From assembly GCF_000993785.3 (NCBI RefSeq), contig NZ_CP009922.3, positions 1,302,001 to 1,366,000 of the forward strand: 64,000 bases of DNA. The letters run 5' to 3'. Positions 4,438 to 53,718 of this stretch are shown piece after piece. Below the pieces are notes generated by a model, which was not told the origin of the DNA, did not search any database, and saw only the letters and a program-made list of their open reading frames with translations. The position numbers were made by a program, and so were the translations under genes. This DNA comes from Streptomyces xiamenensis. Lineage in GTDB: Bacteria; Actinomycetota; Actinomycetes; Streptomycetales; Streptomycetaceae. The first letter of the stretch is position 1. The number at the start of each line of letters is the position of its first letter.

Positions 4438-5889
4438 GTGGCTCCCCTGACGGCCGGGCCCGGACAACGGGCCGTTCTGTCACGGCCGCTGTCGGTGCCG
4501 CTGGTGGCCGGGGTGGTGGGGCTGCTGCCGTTCGCGGTGGCCGCGCAGCCGGGTGAGGGGGTGCGGGACACCGCGTTCTGGCTTCAGTTGGTGGTCGCCG
4601 GGTACGCCGGAGTACGGCTGTGCACCATGGTGCTGTCGGGGCGGCGGCGGCTGGTCCAGGGCGTTTTCTGGCTGTTCTGCTATCTGGCGATGGGCATCGC
4701 CCCGCTCGCCCAGTCGGTGCTCGGCCGTGATCCCACCCCGGTGCTGGGCCCGCGCTCGGACACGCTGCTGGCGACCGTGCTGGTGCTGACCGGGATGGTC
4801 GCCTTCGACGTCGGGGCGCTGCTGGCCCGGCACCGGCCCTCGCTGCGCAGCATGCGCGCGCCGGCCGCCACCGTGCACCGGCGCCGGCTGTTCGTGCTGG
4901 TCGCGGTGGCGTACGTGGCGAGCGGGCTGCTGATCGTGCGGCTGGGCGGCCCGGCGGTCTTCTTCAGCAGCCGGCAGGAAGTGGGCGCCGCGCTGAACGA
5001 GGCGACGGCCTCCGGTGCGGACGGGGCCGGGGGCGAGGCGGGCAACGCACTGCTGCGCGGCTTCGGCACCGTGCCGGCGCTGCTGGCGCTGCTGTTCCTC
5101 ACCCGCTGGCTGGTCACCTCGCGGCGGGCGCGGCGGCGGCTGTGGCTGGTGCTGTGCTGGGCCGGTCTGCTCGTCCTCAACGTCATCGTCAACAACCCGA
5201 TCTCCAATCCCCGTTACTGGTTCCTGACGGTGCTGTTCGCGCTGCTGTTCACGCTCTTTCCGCGCAGCAGCGTGATGTACCGGGCGGCGCTGGCGCTGGG
5301 CCTGGTGGTGGCGCTGCTGGTGTTCCCGTTCACCGACCGGTTCCGGTACGACGAGGAGGGGCGGCAGCCGGTGGAGACCGGGTCGCTGATGGAGCCGCTG
5401 GTCATCAAGGACTACGACCAGGTGGGGATGTTCGCGAACACGGTGACGTACGCGGGGGACGGCAACGGGCACACGCTGGGCCGCCAGGTGGTGGGCGCGG
5501 CGCTGTTCTTCGTGCCGCGCACGGTGTGGGAGTCCAAGCCGGAGGACACCGGGTTCCTGGTGGGCGGCTGGATGGGCACCTCCAGCGCCAATCTGTCCTC
5601 GCCGCTGTGGGCGGAACTGTGGCTGGACTTCGGCCCGCTGGGCATGGCGGCGGGTTTTGTCGCGGTGGGCTATCTGGCGGCGCGCACGGACCGCCGCTAT
5701 GTGGCCCGGACGCTGGACGATCCCTCACCGGGCAATGTGCTGGCGGTGGTGGCGCCCGTGCTGGCCGGGTACAGCTTCATCCTGCTGCGCGGTTCGCTGC
5801 TCCAGGCGTCGGGGCGGATCGGGATCGCGCTGCTGTGTCTGGCGCTGGTGACGAGTTGGCGGGGGGATCCGCGGACGCAGTTGCGCTGA
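4438..5889 (+). CDS. Multispanning membrane protein, Wzy/O-antigen-polymerase-like
   Basis: The 483-residue protein has roughly ten to twelve hydrophobic segments and a larger hydrophilic stretch after about residue 290 (R-F-R-Y-D-E-E-G and following), the layout of polysaccharide polymerases of the Wzy type. It is inferred to sit in the cytoplasmic membrane and polymerise lipid-linked repeat units. Support comes from the Wzx-, Wzz- and glycosyltransferase-like genes 5 kb downstream, although several unrelated genes intervene. The start is GTG. A 36-codon ORF (4340-4450) overlaps it in another frame and is probably not a gene. The polymerase call rests on topology, not on a catalytic motif. 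Confidence 0.6.
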   Translation: MAPLTAGPGQRAVLSRPLSVPLVAGVVGLLPFAVAAQPGEGVRDTAFWLQLVVAGYAGVRLCTMVLSGRRRLVQGVFWLFCYLAMGIAPLAQSVLGRDPTPVLGPRSDTLLATVLVLTGMVAFDVGALLARHRPSLRSMRAPAATVHRRRLFVLVAVAYVASGLLIVRLGGPAVFFSSRQEVGAALNEATASGADGAGGEAGNALLRGFGTVPALLALLFLTRWLVTSRRARRRLWLVLCWAGLLVLNVIVNNPISNPRYWFLTVLFALLFTLFPRSSVMYRAALALGLVVALLVFPFTDRFRYDEEGRQPVETGSLMEPLVIKDYDQVGMFANTVTYAGDGNGHTLGRQVVGAALFFVPRTVWESKPEDTGFLVGGWMGTSSANLSSPLWAELWLDFGPLGMAAGFVAVGYLAARTDRRYVARTLDDPSPGNVLAVVAPVLAGYSFILLRGSLLQASGRIGIALLCLALVTSWRGDPRTQLR

Positions 5890-8881: not shown

Positions 8882-9607
8882 GTGACACCGAACGAATCCC
8901 CCGCGTCCCTGGTCCTGGCCGCCGCCCGCAACAACGCCGAGTGGTGCGCCGTGATGAGCGCCGCCCACGGCGTGACCGGCGGCGGCTTCGGCCCGCAGTC
9001 CTGGGCCGCCCCCACCCGTACCCCGCCGTACTACCCGGACGCGGTCACGCTGACGCCGGGCGCCGACCCGGCCGCGCTGGTGGCCCGGATCGACACGGCC
9101 ACCCCGGGTGCCTCGGTCAAGGACAGCTTCGCCGACCTGGAGCTGACCGGGGCCGGGTTCCGGGTGCTGTTCGAGGCGGCGTGGATCCACCGGCCGGCCG
9201 GCGCACCGGCGACCGCCTCCGGCCTGGGGTGGGAGGTGGTCCGCGACCCGGACGCGCTGCGTACCTGGGCACTGGCCTGGGACGACGGCGCCGGGGACGC
9301 CGCTCTCTTCCCGCCCGCGCTGCTCGCCGACCCGGACACCTTCGTGCTGGCCGGGCGGCATCCCGGTGACCGCGGGGTGGTCGCCGGGGCGGTGGCCGGC
9401 CGCGCCGCCGGTGTGATCGGCGTCTCCAACGTCTTCCGGCGGGACGACGCCACCCCCGATACCGCCTGGCCGTTCGTACTGGAGGCGGTGCACCACCTCT
9501 TCCCCGGCCTGCCGGTGGTGGGCTACGAGCACGGCGAGGACCTCACGGCCGCCCTTGCACACGGCTTCGCGACGGTGGGCCCGCTCCGGATCTGGCTGCA
9601 CGGATAG
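8882..9607 (+). CDS. GNAT-like conserved protein
   Basis: This 241-residue protein starts at GTG. I do not recognise the N-terminal half. The C-terminal part reads like a degenerate GNAT acetyltransferase: G-V-I-G-V-S-N-V-F (strand 4-like), a helix with P-F-V-L-E-A-V, then V-V-G-Y-E-H-G-E-D-L and a terminal G-F-A-T-V-G-P-L-R-I-W-L. No acetyl-CoA Q/R-x-x-G-x-G/A loop is obvious, so enzymatic activity is doubtful. It lies 58 bp after the NmrA-like gene on the same strand and could share its transcript. The riboswitch of the next gene begins about 26 bp after its stop. Confidence 0.6.
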   Translation: MTPNESPASLVLAAARNNAEWCAVMSAAHGVTGGGFGPQSWAAPTRTPPYYPDAVTLTPGADPAALVARIDTATPGASVKDSFADLELTGAGFRVLFEAAWIHRPAGAPATASGLGWEVVRDPDALRTWALAWDDGAGDAALFPPALLADPDTFVLAGRHPGDRGVVAGAVAGRAAGVIGVSNVFRRDDATPDTAWPFVLEAVHHLFPGLPVVGYEHGEDLTAALAHGFATVGPLRIWLHG

Positions 9608-9633
9608 CGGATGCCCAGGTCAGGTACAGTGGG

Positions 9634-9755
9634 CGGCTGCGAAGGGGAGTAGCCCCGCGATACCGGTCGTCGACACACTGGAACCCCCGGGTTCCCGGTG
9701 GCCGGGCCCGCCATCCGGTCCAGGCCGGTGCACGGGCGGGCGAGACCTTCGGCCC
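9634..9755 (+). promoter_or_regulatory. yybP-ykoY-type manganese riboswitch
   Basis: The leader shows the hallmark sequences of this class in order. GAAGGGGAGTAGC (9641-9653) carries the loop L1 GGGGAGUAGC. The central CGTCGACAC region at about 9668-9676 follows, then two hairpins, then GGGCGAGACCTTC (9738-9750), which carries the L3 C-G-A-G-A-C-C. P1 closes through GAAGG (9641-9645) pairing with CCTTC (9746-9750), extendable by GC. Members bind Mn2+ and switch on Mn2+ exporters or related cation proteins. The 114 nt from the aptamer to GTG 9870 would be the expression platform; a GGCGG/CCGCC hairpin can form there. TACAGT at 9625-9630 is a possible -10 element. Confidence 0.85.
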
Positions 9756-9869
9756 ATTTGTCGACGACGTATGTCATGCGGTGCGTCGGCGGGGTCGAAG
9801 CTGCCGCCGCTCCCCCGCGCCGGACGTCCTCGATGCCCCGCCGTCGCGCGGGAAGGCCGGACGATAACC

Positions 9870-10934
9870 GTGATCCATTTCGTACTGCTCATCTTGTGTG
9901 CGGTGGCGATCTATCTCTCGTGCGAGTGGTTCGTCAATGCCGTGGAGTGGCTGGGCGAGCGCCTCAACGTGGGGAAGATGGCCGTCGGGACCATCCTCGC
10001 CGCCTTCGGTACGGCGCTGCCCGAGTCCGTGGTCACGCTGGTCGCGGTGACGACCGGCGCCACCGACGAGGCCAAGGACATCGGCGTGGGAGCGGCCATG
10101 GGCGGCCCGCTCGCGCTGGCGACCGTCGCGTACGGCGTGACCGGCACGATGCTGCTGCTCAAGCGGCGCCGGGACCGCGCCCTGGTGGCAACCGGCGGCT
10201 CCGGCTCCGGCGGCGTGGGCGCCGCGTCCGAGGCGCTGGGTGACGAGCGCGACATGCGGCGGCTGGCCAAGGACCAGAAGTGGTTCCTGCCGATCTTCAT
10301 CGTGAAGGTGGCACTCGGCCTGGTGGCGTTCGCGTTCAAGCCCGCGCTGGGCGTGCTGTTCTTCGCCGCGTACGCCGCCTACTTCTGGCGCGAGATCCGC
10401 AACAGCCGCGCCGCCGAGGGCTCGCTGGACGGCGAGGAGGAGGACGAGCTGGAGCCGCTGAAGCTCCAGCCCCACGCCGCCTCCCCGGCGACCTGGGCCG
10501 TGGTGCTCCAGACCCTGGCCAGCCTCGCGGTGATCTTCGTCGCCGCCCACGCGTTCGTGGGTCAGCTCGACAGCATCGGCCCCATGCTGGGGCTGTCCGC
10601 GACGGTCACCGCGCTGCTGCTGTCGCCGATCGCCACCGAACTGCCGGAGATCATGAACGCGGTGATCTGGGTCAGGCAGGGCAAGATCAAGTTGGCGCTC
10701 GCCAACATCTCGGGTTCGATGATGATCCAGGCCACCGTGCCCAGCGGGATCGGACTGATCTTCACCCGCTGGCACTTCGACGGCGCGCTGCTGTGGTCCG
10801 GGCTGATCACCATGGCCGCGATCGGCTATCTGCTGCTGACGATGCGGACGCACCGGCTGACCCCGGCGCGGCTGGCGGTGACGGCGGGCTTCTACGTCGT
10901 CTTCGCGCTCGGCCTGATCCCGATCCTCGGCTGA
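9870..10934 (+). CDS. Sodium/calcium exchanger-family cation antiporter (probable Mn2+/Ca2+ export)
   Basis: The 354-residue membrane protein has two homologous halves, each with an alpha-repeat of the CaCA superfamily: G-T-I-L-A-A-F-G-T-A-L-P-E-S-V (about 41-55) and L-L-L-S-P-I-A-T-E-L-P-E-I-M (about 250-263). Both carry the ion-binding glutamate. A cytoplasmic acidic loop (E-E-E-D-E-L-E) sits between the halves. GTG 9870 is chosen because it opens the first membrane helix (I-H-F-V-L-L-I-L-C); GGAAGG lies 13 nt upstream. The riboswitch in its leader suggests Mn2+ induction, so Mn2+ efflux is the best inference, although the family is usually described for Ca2+ or Na+. Confidence 0.88.
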   Translation: MIHFVLLILCAVAIYLSCEWFVNAVEWLGERLNVGKMAVGTILAAFGTALPESVVTLVAVTTGATDEAKDIGVGAAMGGPLALATVAYGVTGTMLLLKRRRDRALVATGGSGSGGVGAASEALGDERDMRRLAKDQKWFLPIFIVKVALGLVAFAFKPALGVLFFAAYAAYFWREIRNSRAAEGSLDGEEEDELEPLKLQPHAASPATWAVVLQTLASLAVIFVAAHAFVGQLDSIGPMLGLSATVTALLLSPIATELPEIMNAVIWVRQGKIKLALANISGSMMIQATVPSGIGLIFTRWHFDGALLWSGLITMAAIGYLLLTMRTHRLTPARLAVTAGFYVVFALGLIPILG

Positions 10935-10961: not shown

Positions 10962-10985
10962 GGGTGGCCGGCTACCCGGCCACCC
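10962..10985. terminator. Bidirectional hairpin terminator
   Basis: GGGTGGCCGG (10962-10971) pairs perfectly with CCGGCCACCC (10976-10985) around CTAC. It lies between the antiporter stop (10934) and the convergent flippase gene, overlapping the last codons and TAG of the latter. Confidence 0.7.
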
Positions 10986-12249
10986 GCCCGTCCCGCTCCG
11001 GGGCCGGCTCCCCGTCCGGCGGTTCCGCCTCCGGTTCCCGCTCGGCGGCGACCCGCACCTCGAAGGCCACCCGGGTCCAGGCCGCGACCGCCTTCGCCGC
11101 CGAGCCCGCACACAGGCCCCAGGCCGCGCCCAGGATGCCGCCCAGCGCGTAGCCGGTCAGCAGGGCCACCACCGAGACCAGTGAGAACACCAGCTGGATC
11201 GGCAAGGTGGCGCGCGGGCTCAGCACGCGCAGCGCCAGCAGGCCGCAGGTGCCCATGGCCATCGCCGCGTACTGGCTGCCGGTGGCCGGGATGAGCGCGG
11301 ACGCCGACTGCCAGGTGTCGCCCAGCAGTTGGCGGCCCCAGCTGTCCGGCAGCATGGACAGCAGCAGCGCCCAGAGCGCCGCCACCGCCGCGAGCGCGCC
11401 GCCCGCGAGCGCCGCCGTACGGGCCTTGCCGGCGCCCGATCGCTGCTCGCCGAGCAGCGGCGGGCCGAAGCCGGTGGCGGTGTTGAACAGCACGTTCAGC
11501 GGGCCGAAGACGGTACCGGCGCCGCGCAGCGCGCCGACGGCCAGCGGGTTGGCCAGCGCTCCGAGCCCGATGATCGCCAGCTGCGAGGAGGCGTTGCCGA
11601 CGCCGAACTCCACCACGAACCGCTGCCCCAGATGCCCGCGCGCCAGCAGCGCCGCCGGGCGCGGCCGGCCGGCCGCGTCCGCGGTGGCCCGGTACAGCAG
11701 CCAGCTCGCGAGCCCGAGCGCGGGCAGTGCCGAAAGACCCCAGGCCAGCACGAGCGTCGCGGCGCCGGGACCGGCCGGCAGCAGCGACAGCGCGGGTACG
11801 GCCACCGCCAGCCGCAGAACGTCGGCCGCCAGCGCGAGTTGGGGCCGCCGCAGCACCGAGAAGGCGTAGCGCAGGGTGTCCTGGGTGAGCACGATCGGCA
11901 GCACCGCGCCCAGCGCCGCCAGCGCCCCGGCCGACAGCGCGTACGCGGGCAGCGCCAGCACCAGCCCCACGGCGGTGGCGGCGGCGAGCGCGAACAGGGC
12001 GGCCGAGCGGCAGTCCCTGGCCAGTTCGGCGGGGTCGCGGCCGGCGCCGCCGCGCAGCACGAGCGATTGGCCGACGTACGCGGTGCAGGCGCCGAGCAGG
12101 ACGGCGAACACGGCGTAGACGAGGGCGAAATCGGCGAAGGCCCCGGCGGAGGACTGGCGGGCGGCGAACACCACCACCGCGATGTTGGTGAGGGCCGCCA
12201 CCCCCTGATCGGCGATGGAGAAGGCGACGGCGCGCCCGGGTCGTATCAC
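10972..12249 (-). CDS. Wzx/MATE-like polysaccharide flippase
   Basis: The 425-residue protein has about 12 hydrophobic helices and starts at GTG (V-I-R-P-G-R-A-V-A-F). The MOP-superfamily look is clear: an N-terminal helix pair, a long central hydrophilic link, and a C-terminal helix bundle followed by a charged tail (E-R-E-P-E-A-E). By family it moves lipid-linked oligosaccharide units across the membrane. It is the last gene of a minus-strand operon, glycosyltransferase - Wzz-like - flippase, separated from the Wzz-like gene by 41 bp. Substrate specificity cannot be read from sequence. Confidence 0.75.
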   Translation of the reverse strand: MIRPGRAVAFSIADQGVAALTNIAVVVFAARQSSAGAFADFALVYAVFAVLLGACTAYVGQSLVLRGGAGRDPAELARDCRSAALFALAAATAVGLVLALPAYALSAGALAALGAVLPIVLTQDTLRYAFSVLRRPQLALAADVLRLAVAVPALSLLPAGPGAATLVLAWGLSALPALGLASWLLYRATADAAGRPRPAALLARGHLGQRFVVEFGVGNASSQLAIIGLGALANPLAVGALRGAGTVFGPLNVLFNTATGFGPPLLGEQRSGAGKARTAALAGGALAAVAALWALLLSMLPDSWGRQLLGDTWQSASALIPATGSQYAAMAMGTCGLLALRVLSPRATLPIQLVFSLVSVVALLTGYALGGILGAAWGLCAGSAAKAVAAWTRVAFEVRVAAEREPEAEPPDGEPAPERDGRVAG

Positions 12250-53299: not shown

Positions 53300-53718
53300 C
53301 GGCAGACGAGTCGGGCTGTACGCCGGGTTCTGTTCCCGCCCCCAAAGGGGTGGGTGGCGGTCATCCATCTAGGGCTGCCGTCGCCGACAGCCTCCAGCGG
53401 TCTACCCGCGGACTCGGGCGGGCCGCCCTCAGTCATCCGCGCGAGGCCATCGCCGATGGCCCCTTCTTGACCTTGCTCCGGGTGGGGTTTACCGAGCCGG
53501 CCGGGTCACCCCGGTCGCTGGTGGTCTCTTACACCACCGTTTCACCCTTACCGGGTGCCGTTCGCACGGCCCCGGCGGTCTGTTTTCTGTGGCACTGTCC
53601 CGTGGGTCGCCCCAGGTAGGCGTTACCTACCACCCTGCCCTGTGGAGCCCGGACGTTCCTCGGCGGCACCCGGCCTGAACCGGACACCAACGCGACCGCC
53701 CGCGCGACTCGTCTGCCG
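53300..53718 (-). ncRNA. rnpB: RNase P RNA (bacterial class A)
   Basis: On the minus strand the 5' end GGCAGACGAGTCG (53717-53705) pairs perfectly with the 3' end CGACTCGTCTGCC (53313-53301), forming P1. The universal core is present: GAGGAACGTCCGGGCTC (53661-53645), the AGGGTGAAACGGTG stretch near 53550-53536 followed by GTAAGAG, and ACAGAACCCGGC (53333-53322) near the 3' end. Length of about 419 nt is normal for Streptomyces. It is the catalytic RNA that matures tRNA 5' ends. The neighbouring yaaA and RNase H/phosphatase genes are its usual context. Confidence 0.95.

Follow-up and report, generated by a model that had tools for sequence, protein, structure and literature searches.

A yybP-ykoY-type leader of actinobacterial form upstream of a CaCA-superfamily antiporter gene, a probable Mn2+ exporter, in Streptomyces xiamenensis

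Proteins of the CaCA superfamily mostly handle Ca2+, and GDT1/UPF0016 is a known family of Mn2+ exporters. Among screened strains with a UPF0016 gene, that gene lies under a yybP-ykoY leader in 328 of 333, according to the available text of PMC7380456. A CaCA-superfamily protein under such a leader has been described in Bordetella, where BP3410 exports Mn2+; the available sections of that report (PMC8546581, published in 2021) give an Rfam E of 8.5e-15 for the leader, induction by Mn2+ but none by Ca2+ (the Ca2+ result being stated as data not shown), and about 5-fold more cell Mn in Bordetella without working BP3410. Because the Bordetella case is published, the link between CaCA proteins and the Mn2+ riboswitch is already known and is not new here. 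In the two known aptamers the Mn2+-sensing adenosine is A48 in X. oryzae (ACA48U49ACU52) and A41 in L. lactis (UCA41AU43UC), the Mn2+-specific contact is the N7 of A48, and the U49 position differs between the two, being U in X. oryzae and A in L. lactis (PMC6754395, in its available parts). A partial literature search returned no actinobacterial CaCA gene under yybP-ykoY; the 2015 target lists of Price and of Dambach may name CaCA. What is added here is an actinobacterial form of the leader that is missed at the Rfam cut-off, the occurrence of a CaCA branch together with the riboswitch in two phyla, and the altered site of the proteins of this branch.

The leader and the gene downstream

We analysed a 64-kb window (the whole stretch of DNA studied here) of S. 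xiamenensis, the genome of which is a single contig of 5.96 Mb. In the window, a yybP-ykoY-type leader precedes a gene of the CaCA superfamily, and the extents of aptamer and gene agree with the span of 9634-10934 given in the preliminary description. The features are as follows, where A1 is an alignment of 47 leaders and R1 is the covariance-type model made from the same 47 (that of the window, 45 of the 68 CaCA leaders described below and that of the GDT1 gene in this genome).

9625-9630, + strand: -10-like box TACAGT, read from the sequence, immediately 5' of the aptamer
9636-9758, + strand: yybP-ykoY-type Mn2+ aptamer of actinobacterial form (R1 99.8 bits; RF00080 23.7 bits; covariation)
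9640-9645, + strand: 5' strand of P1, CGAAGG, pairing with 9746-9751; helix 1 of A1, 99.3% of cells paired
9644-9652, + strand: segment GGGGAGUAG of loop L1, with GGGGAGTA invariant in the 47 aligned leaders
9652-9655, + strand: 5' strand of helix 2, pairing with 9738-9741; one pair changes from C-G to U-A in 14 of 47 leaders
9673-9679, + strand: loop L3, ACACACU, with ACA invariant in A1 and A9675 the equivalent of the Mn2+-sensing A
9742-9751, + strand: GAGACCUUCG, the 3' side of L1 and the 3' strand of P1, invariant or at least 90% conserved in A1
9747-9755, + strand: 5' side of a possible alternative helix, CUUCGGCCC, with bases common to P1, pairing with 9792-9800
9792-9800, + strand: 3' side of the possible alternative helix, GGGUCGAAG, a competitor of P1, partner of 9747-9755
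9850-9856, + strand: ribosome-binding-like GGGAAGG, read from the sequence, 13 nt 5' of the GTG start
9870-10934, + strand: CaCA-superfamily antiporter gene, 354 aa, GTG start, stop included (PF01699, E = 3.8e-27)

The aptamer is separated from the start of the CaCA gene by 111 nt. A frame upstream, on the same strand as the CaCA gene, ends at 9607, and the next long frame past the gene (10972-12249) is on the opposite strand.

The yybP-ykoY hallmark segments that had been reported for this leader are all present and in the correct order, a combination matched in none of 100 dinucleotide shuffles: the pattern GGGGAGTAG...GAGACCTTC, at 9644-9750 (+), occurs once in the 64 kb, and the L1 segment has GAGACC opposite it, these bases being invariant or at least 90% conserved across the 47 leaders. 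Rfam includes a sequence in RF00080 at a gathering cut-off of 45 bits, and in a scan of the window at gathering score RF00080 is absent, the sole Rfam match being a class A RNase P RNA (53303-53711, -, 272.7 bits). When the leader is scanned alone, RF00080 is the top Rfam family, at 9642-9741 with 23.7 bits and E = 1e-4. Because this score is below 45, we name the leader an actinobacterial yybP-ykoY-type aptamer and do not count it among the RF00080 members. The covariance check suggested in the preliminary description held insofar as RF00080 is the best-scoring family and failed at the cut-off; the absence of a covariance hit, which had been offered there as grounds for giving up the riboswitch, would apply at the Rfam cut-off and mislead. 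The weak score reflects divergence of the actinobacterial aptamer form, the same leader recurring in homologue loci. The R1 score is that of a member of the model's own training set.

The structure of the leader is established by covariation. Within A1, 97.3% of the pair cells of the 47 leaders are paired, and 16 of 28 pairs show double-sided changes. The alignment has a covariation score of 0.358, compared with 0.170 +/- 0.008 after shuffling, with 0 of 500 shuffles as high, and with at most 0.102 when the partners are slid. Chance resemblance is rejected by covariation beyond the 500 shuffles together with the absence of the motif from the 100 dinucleotide shuffles. The promoter-like box also recurs, with TANNNT just 5' of the aptamer in 55 of the 68 leaders for which 300 nt of upstream sequence were available, and in 0-4 of 68 at each of 11 shifted positions, an enrichment which suggests that transcripts probably start at the aptamer.

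The potential for a helix that competes with P1 is likewise conserved. A run of at least 8 pairs is found in 66 of 68 CaCA leaders, where 6.8 are expected from shuffles (L043, which has no GACCTTCG, was left out), and in 56 of 74 GDT1 leaders, where 5.8 are expected; the 74 are those of 95 GDT1 leaders with a perfect motif match and enough sequence, and TerC leaders were left out. True helix partners are paired in 744 of 1020 cells versus 719.6 +/- 3.8 for swapped partners, an excess favoured by kinship and motif choice (L009, anchored on a later motif, was omitted from this comparison). Fold energies, which are blind to Mn2+ and tertiary contacts, were computed for 18 leaders. Forcing the alternative helix gave the free-fold energy in 16 of the 18, so the free fold can contain this helix, and forcing P1 costs energy in all 18. 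The alternative helix is not in the unconstrained best fold of the window, where forcing it gives -118.1 versus -123.6 kcal/mol for the free fold, i.e., 5.5 kcal/mol worse, and 7.5 kcal/mol better than the P1-forced fold (-110.6); in L054, forcing it is 18 kcal/mol worse than the free fold. Its absence from the free fold of the window slightly lowers our confidence in the main explanation set out below. Competition between P1 and the alternative helix in the window may nevertheless fit the published anti-termination scheme, in which, as far as the available text describes it, Mn2+ stabilises P1.1.

Two modes of control were considered. By pattern search, a U-tract follows the competing helix in only 2 of 69 leaders, both from Actinoallomurus (L061 and L069) and terminator-like in having the helix and then the tract; no U-tract follows the helix in the window, which rejects an intrinsic terminator there. 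Translational control by hiding the ribosome site is not claimed here, as constrained folds of the 18 leaders give no consistent change in accessibility between the two states.

Occurrence in Actinobacteria and Proteobacteria

Homologue loci were drawn from the GTDB collection as the best 80 of 128 relatives, and in 68 of these the leader lies upstream of the start on the coding strand, recognised there by the pattern GGGGAGTA[GA] followed by [GA]AGACCT[TG]. R1 scores these 68 leaders at 71-114 bits, 45 of them being in its training set. The pattern is missing from its usual place in 12 of 80 loci (L010, L022, L029, L035, L037, L044, L046, L047, L049, L053, L071 and L083), three of which have lower R1 matches: decayed ones in L010 and L037, and one about 670 nt farther upstream in L071. 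A quick protein tree of 86 rows places Streptomyces rows nearest to the window protein. The leader label changes 10 times on this tree versus 13.2 times when shuffled, and 5 of the changes are forced by well-supported branches, a distribution that would fit an ancient leader which has been lost on several occasions. Few genomes have the CaCA gene at all: 3 of the 121 from the genus and 6 of the 246 from the class. Three of the six class genomes have an intact leader; among the three genus genomes the leader is present in two and decayed in the third (47.2 bits).

Further aptamers were seen close to several of these loci. Streptomyces sp. L-9-10 (L013) has a second one at 318-435 (+; 96.8 bits), about 2.4 kb before its CaCA leader, which precedes a CorA-like protein (about 636-1661; PF01544, E 4.6e-44); CorA under an Mn2+ switch is unexpected. 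Adjoining the CaCA leader of Sphaerisporangium perillae (L056) is a divergent aptamer at 2446-2557 (-; 98.5 bits), with a YibE/F-like protein (PF07907, E 3.1e-66) encoded about 330 nt past it. In Streptomyces bluensis (L006), a GDT1 gene with its own aptamer at 5146-5257 (+) lies about 1 kb past the CaCA gene on the same strand.

Across the S. xiamenensis genome R1 has only two matches, both in its training set. The second, G000:C1:1374542-1374649 (-), scores 70.8 bits and precedes a 193-aa GDT1/UPF0016 protein. At E <= 1e-4, R1 matches were found in 135 of 246 class genomes. RF00080 exceeded its cut-off in 0 of 246 class genomes and in 2 of 14 control genomes, in a search with stricter filters that considered 10 candidates per genome, leaves the window copy itself unlisted and gives a lower bound on the number of weak matches. 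By these model searches, actinobacterial Mn2+ riboswitches seem largely missed at the Rfam threshold. We examined 148 class hits among the R1 matches listed, including the two of S. xiamenensis and leaving out two at contig edges, and 138 of them precede a gene of Mn2+ homeostasis (GDT1, TerC or CaCA). The genes comprise 95 GDT1, 39 TerC (10 of them recognised by tblastn and the other 29 from the predicted frame), 3 CaCA with the window included, and 1 of a second CaCA type; 10 of the 148 hits have no assigned gene. Two R1 hits (L181 and L222) are followed by frames whose starts look alike and which belong to none of GDT1, TerC and CaCA. The second CaCA type, behind the aptamer at L199 (genome G121), is 413 aa long and 25.7% identical to the window protein, and has relatives carried by plasmids from Proteobacteria, Bacteroidota and haloarchaea.

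Co-occurrence with GDT1 was scored at 40 chosen loci in 39 genomes, a non-random sample in which genomes may be incomplete. A GDT1 match was found in 24 of these genomes with a CaCA gene and none in 15. Where the CaCA gene bears the leader, 14 of 32 genomes have no GDT1 match, and where it is leaderless GDT1 is present in 6 of 7.

Outside Actinobacteria, a tblastn search of plasmid records with the window protein returned 15 records, of which we analysed 13 loci (H6 and H11 were left out), 10 of them proteobacterial. Upstream of the homologue, RF00080 is over its cut-off at 7 of the 10 proteobacterial loci:

Massilia L246, 101 bits; Azospirillum L239, 76.7 bits; Aeromonas L240, 64.9 bits
Burkholderia L242, 67.6 bits, and L243, 66.6 bits; Novosphingobium L238, 52.4 bits, and L247, 51.5 bits

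The homologues from Massilia, Azospirillum, Aeromonas and Novosphingobium are 42-53% identical to the window protein and those from Burkholderia 32-33%. A Streptomyces plasmid locus (L235) gives RF00080 at 23.4 bits, and no RF00080 match at E <= 0.1 was found at L236, Legionella L237, Enterobacter L244 or the archaeal L241 and L245; at L236 an IS256 transposase gene is directly upstream of the homologue. The gene dmeF occurs near the Massilia and Azospirillum homologues, and the Legionella homologue is two genes away from one for a heavy-metal P-type ATPase. The homologues of L236, L246, L239 and L237 lie in metal islands on plasmids, accompanied by dmeF or by a gene for a heavy-metal P-type ATPase.

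The antiporter, its site and the metal sensed

The preliminary description had called the gene a member of the sodium/calcium-exchanger family, and this is borne out by PF01699, which matches the protein in two Na_Ca_ex stretches (E = 3.8e-27; 95.5 bits for the whole protein versus a cut-off of 24.9). The predicted fold has the 10 helices of CaCA proteins (mean pLDDT 83.3) and compares with CaCA structures at Z scores of 19.6-32.9, the next rows being at 7.3 or less: NCLX 32.9 (rmsd 2.5, 310 aligned), NCX1 31.7, CAX 28.4 and NCX_Mj 21.8. E52 and E260 of the window protein correspond to the key glutamates of NCX_Mj. In the residue numbering that we take to be that of NCX_Mj, N81, D240, S51, S77 and S210 are replaced in the window protein by L83, Q287, A49, G79 and E257, the second repeat having been aligned by hand. 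With L83 and Q287 at the N81 and D240 equivalents, the protein does not have the residues of an NCX-type Na+/Ca2+ exchanger.

These data bear on the best-surviving alternative, by which the RNA senses Mn2+ and the antiporter carries Ca2+ or a broad range of divalent ions, being induced by Mn2+ so that the balance of other cations is restored. We regard this as unlikely. It is in keeping with the PF01699 match, with NCBIfam calcium/sodium antiporter and calcium/proton exchanger matches, all below their cut-offs (TIGR00367, calcium/sodium antiporter, 83.8 bits versus 179.65), and with a fold nearest to NCLX, NCX1 and CAX, all Ca2+ carriers, while the altered site residues are found in leaderless archaeal homologues as well. 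It is opposed by the replacement of NCX-type residues (N81 to L83, D240 to Q287 and S210 to E257), by the 15 of 39 genomes that have the CaCA gene and no GDT1 match, and by the Bordetella precedent, in which a working CaCA protein under yybP-ykoY means about 5-fold less Mn (PMC8546581, available sections). E257 and Q287 are invariant in the protein alignments A2 (41 rows) and A3 (17 rows). Because A3 includes two archaeal homologues and one from Enterobacter, all leaderless and with both residues, E257 and Q287 mark a wider group and not Mn2+ control. Judged from the alignments, the altered site residues argue against a standard Na+/Ca2+ exchanger and do not by themselves point to Mn2+ specificity. 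The annotation "sodium:calcium antiporter" for this branch is probably wrong about the ion.

Considerably less probable is that this leader represents an aptamer variant that responds to a different metal, e.g., Co2+, Cd2+ or Fe2+. Sensing of other metals by some yybP variants is anticipated in a review (PMC7266159, in the part available), the window and many other leaders have C after the sensing A, and the Co/Ni exporter gene dmeF is beside some of the proteobacterial homologues. However, the metal-ligand A is invariant, the ACA of L3 being the same in 47 of 47 leaders, with A9675 at the place of the Mn2+-sensing adenosine by the correspondence drawn from the available parts of PMC6754395. 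The base 3' of it, a U or C in almost every CaCA leader, is the position of X. oryzae U49 and is A in L. lactis, and ACACACU, with its C after the sensing A, is present on GDT1 leaders too. Re-tuning of the metal through the L3 U-to-C change is rejected on these grounds, the contact being made by A48 N7 (PMC6754395, same parts). That the conserved leader is not a riboswitch at all, e.g., a protein-binding or mRNA-stability element resembling yybP-ykoY by chance, would account for an RF00080 score under the gathering cut-off and can be dismissed as extremely improbable against the L1/L3 core, the covarying helices and the over-cut-off RF00080 leaders before homologues of the same protein.

Proposed role and comparison with known systems

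We hypothesize, with a probability of roughly 0.8, that the leader is an Mn2+-sensing ON riboswitch and that the CaCA antiporter downstream exports Mn2+. The Mn riboswitch on a CaCA antiporter put forward in the preliminary description is supported by covariation, the invariant metal-site bases, gene context, the proteobacterial RF00080 leaders and BP3410. The 14 of 32 genomes with a leader-bearing CaCA gene and no GDT1 match, the metal-related neighbours of some homologues and the conserved competing helix also speak for it. Points that count against it are the RF00080 score under the cut-off, the homologues with no intact leader in its usual place (12 of 80 loci, 3 of 6 class genomes and 3 of 10 proteobacterial loci), the C at the U49 position, the fold energies of the window, the scarcity of U-tracts, the steady ribosome-site accessibility, the occurrence of E257 and Q287 in leaderless archaeal homologues, and the Ca2+ habit of most CaCA proteins. 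With Mn2+ bound, the invariant A9675 would hold L1 and L3 locked together, and this locking would stabilise P1 (9640-9645/9746-9751); a stable P1 would block CUUCGGCCC from pairing with the downstream GGGUCGAAG, a helix that would otherwise break the aptamer and lower expression. High cytosolic Mn2+ would in this way turn the CaCA antiporter on and lead to Mn2+ export, beside or instead of the GDT1/UPF0016 exporter on a like switch. Mn2+ is presumed to be both the ligand and the transported ion, and the ON sign would be that of the class by analogy. The competing helix is presumably put to use, the counter-ion would be H+ or Na+, and control would be exerted by termination, Rho or translation.

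A broader proposal, to which we give even odds, is that this CaCA branch of Actinobacteria and Proteobacteria consists of dedicated Mn2+ exporters whose altered metal site has an additional glutamate and none of the sodium-site residues of NCX, that it moves between genomes with its own riboswitch and replaces GDT1 in many actinobacteria, and that the actinobacterial Mn2+ regulon, which would include CorA-like and YibE/F-like genes as well, is largely invisible at the Rfam cut-off. It is weakened because leaderless archaeal homologues share the altered site residues. Mn2+ export would provide a likely function for the CaCA branch of many actinobacteria, would add a second phylum to the Bordetella case of CaCA under yybP-ykoY, and makes the tuning of a CaCA site from Ca2+ to Mn2+ testable.

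The window gene and BP3410 are alike in being CaCA-superfamily genes under yybP-ykoY, a likeness at the level of the superfamily; BP3410 differs in its proteobacterial host and, by the available account, in the strong Rfam match of its leader. With the RF00080 riboswitches of L. lactis and X. oryzae, the window leader shares GGGGAGUAG in L1, an L3 with the sensing A, P1 and the order of the helices, as well as a possible competing helix from the 3' strand of P1, whereas it is high in GC, compact, carries C at the position of U49 in X. oryzae, and lacks a U-tract after the competing helix. The window protein has the ten-helix fold, the two alpha-repeats and the conserved glutamates of NCX_Mj, NCLX and CAX, but is only 15-20% identical to them in structural alignment and, unlike NCX_Mj, has the extra glutamate E257 right after T256. 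GDT1/UPF0016 leaders, one of them in the same genome, share both the leader type and the competing helix with the window, whereas their proteins belong to PF01169 and the window protein to PF01699.
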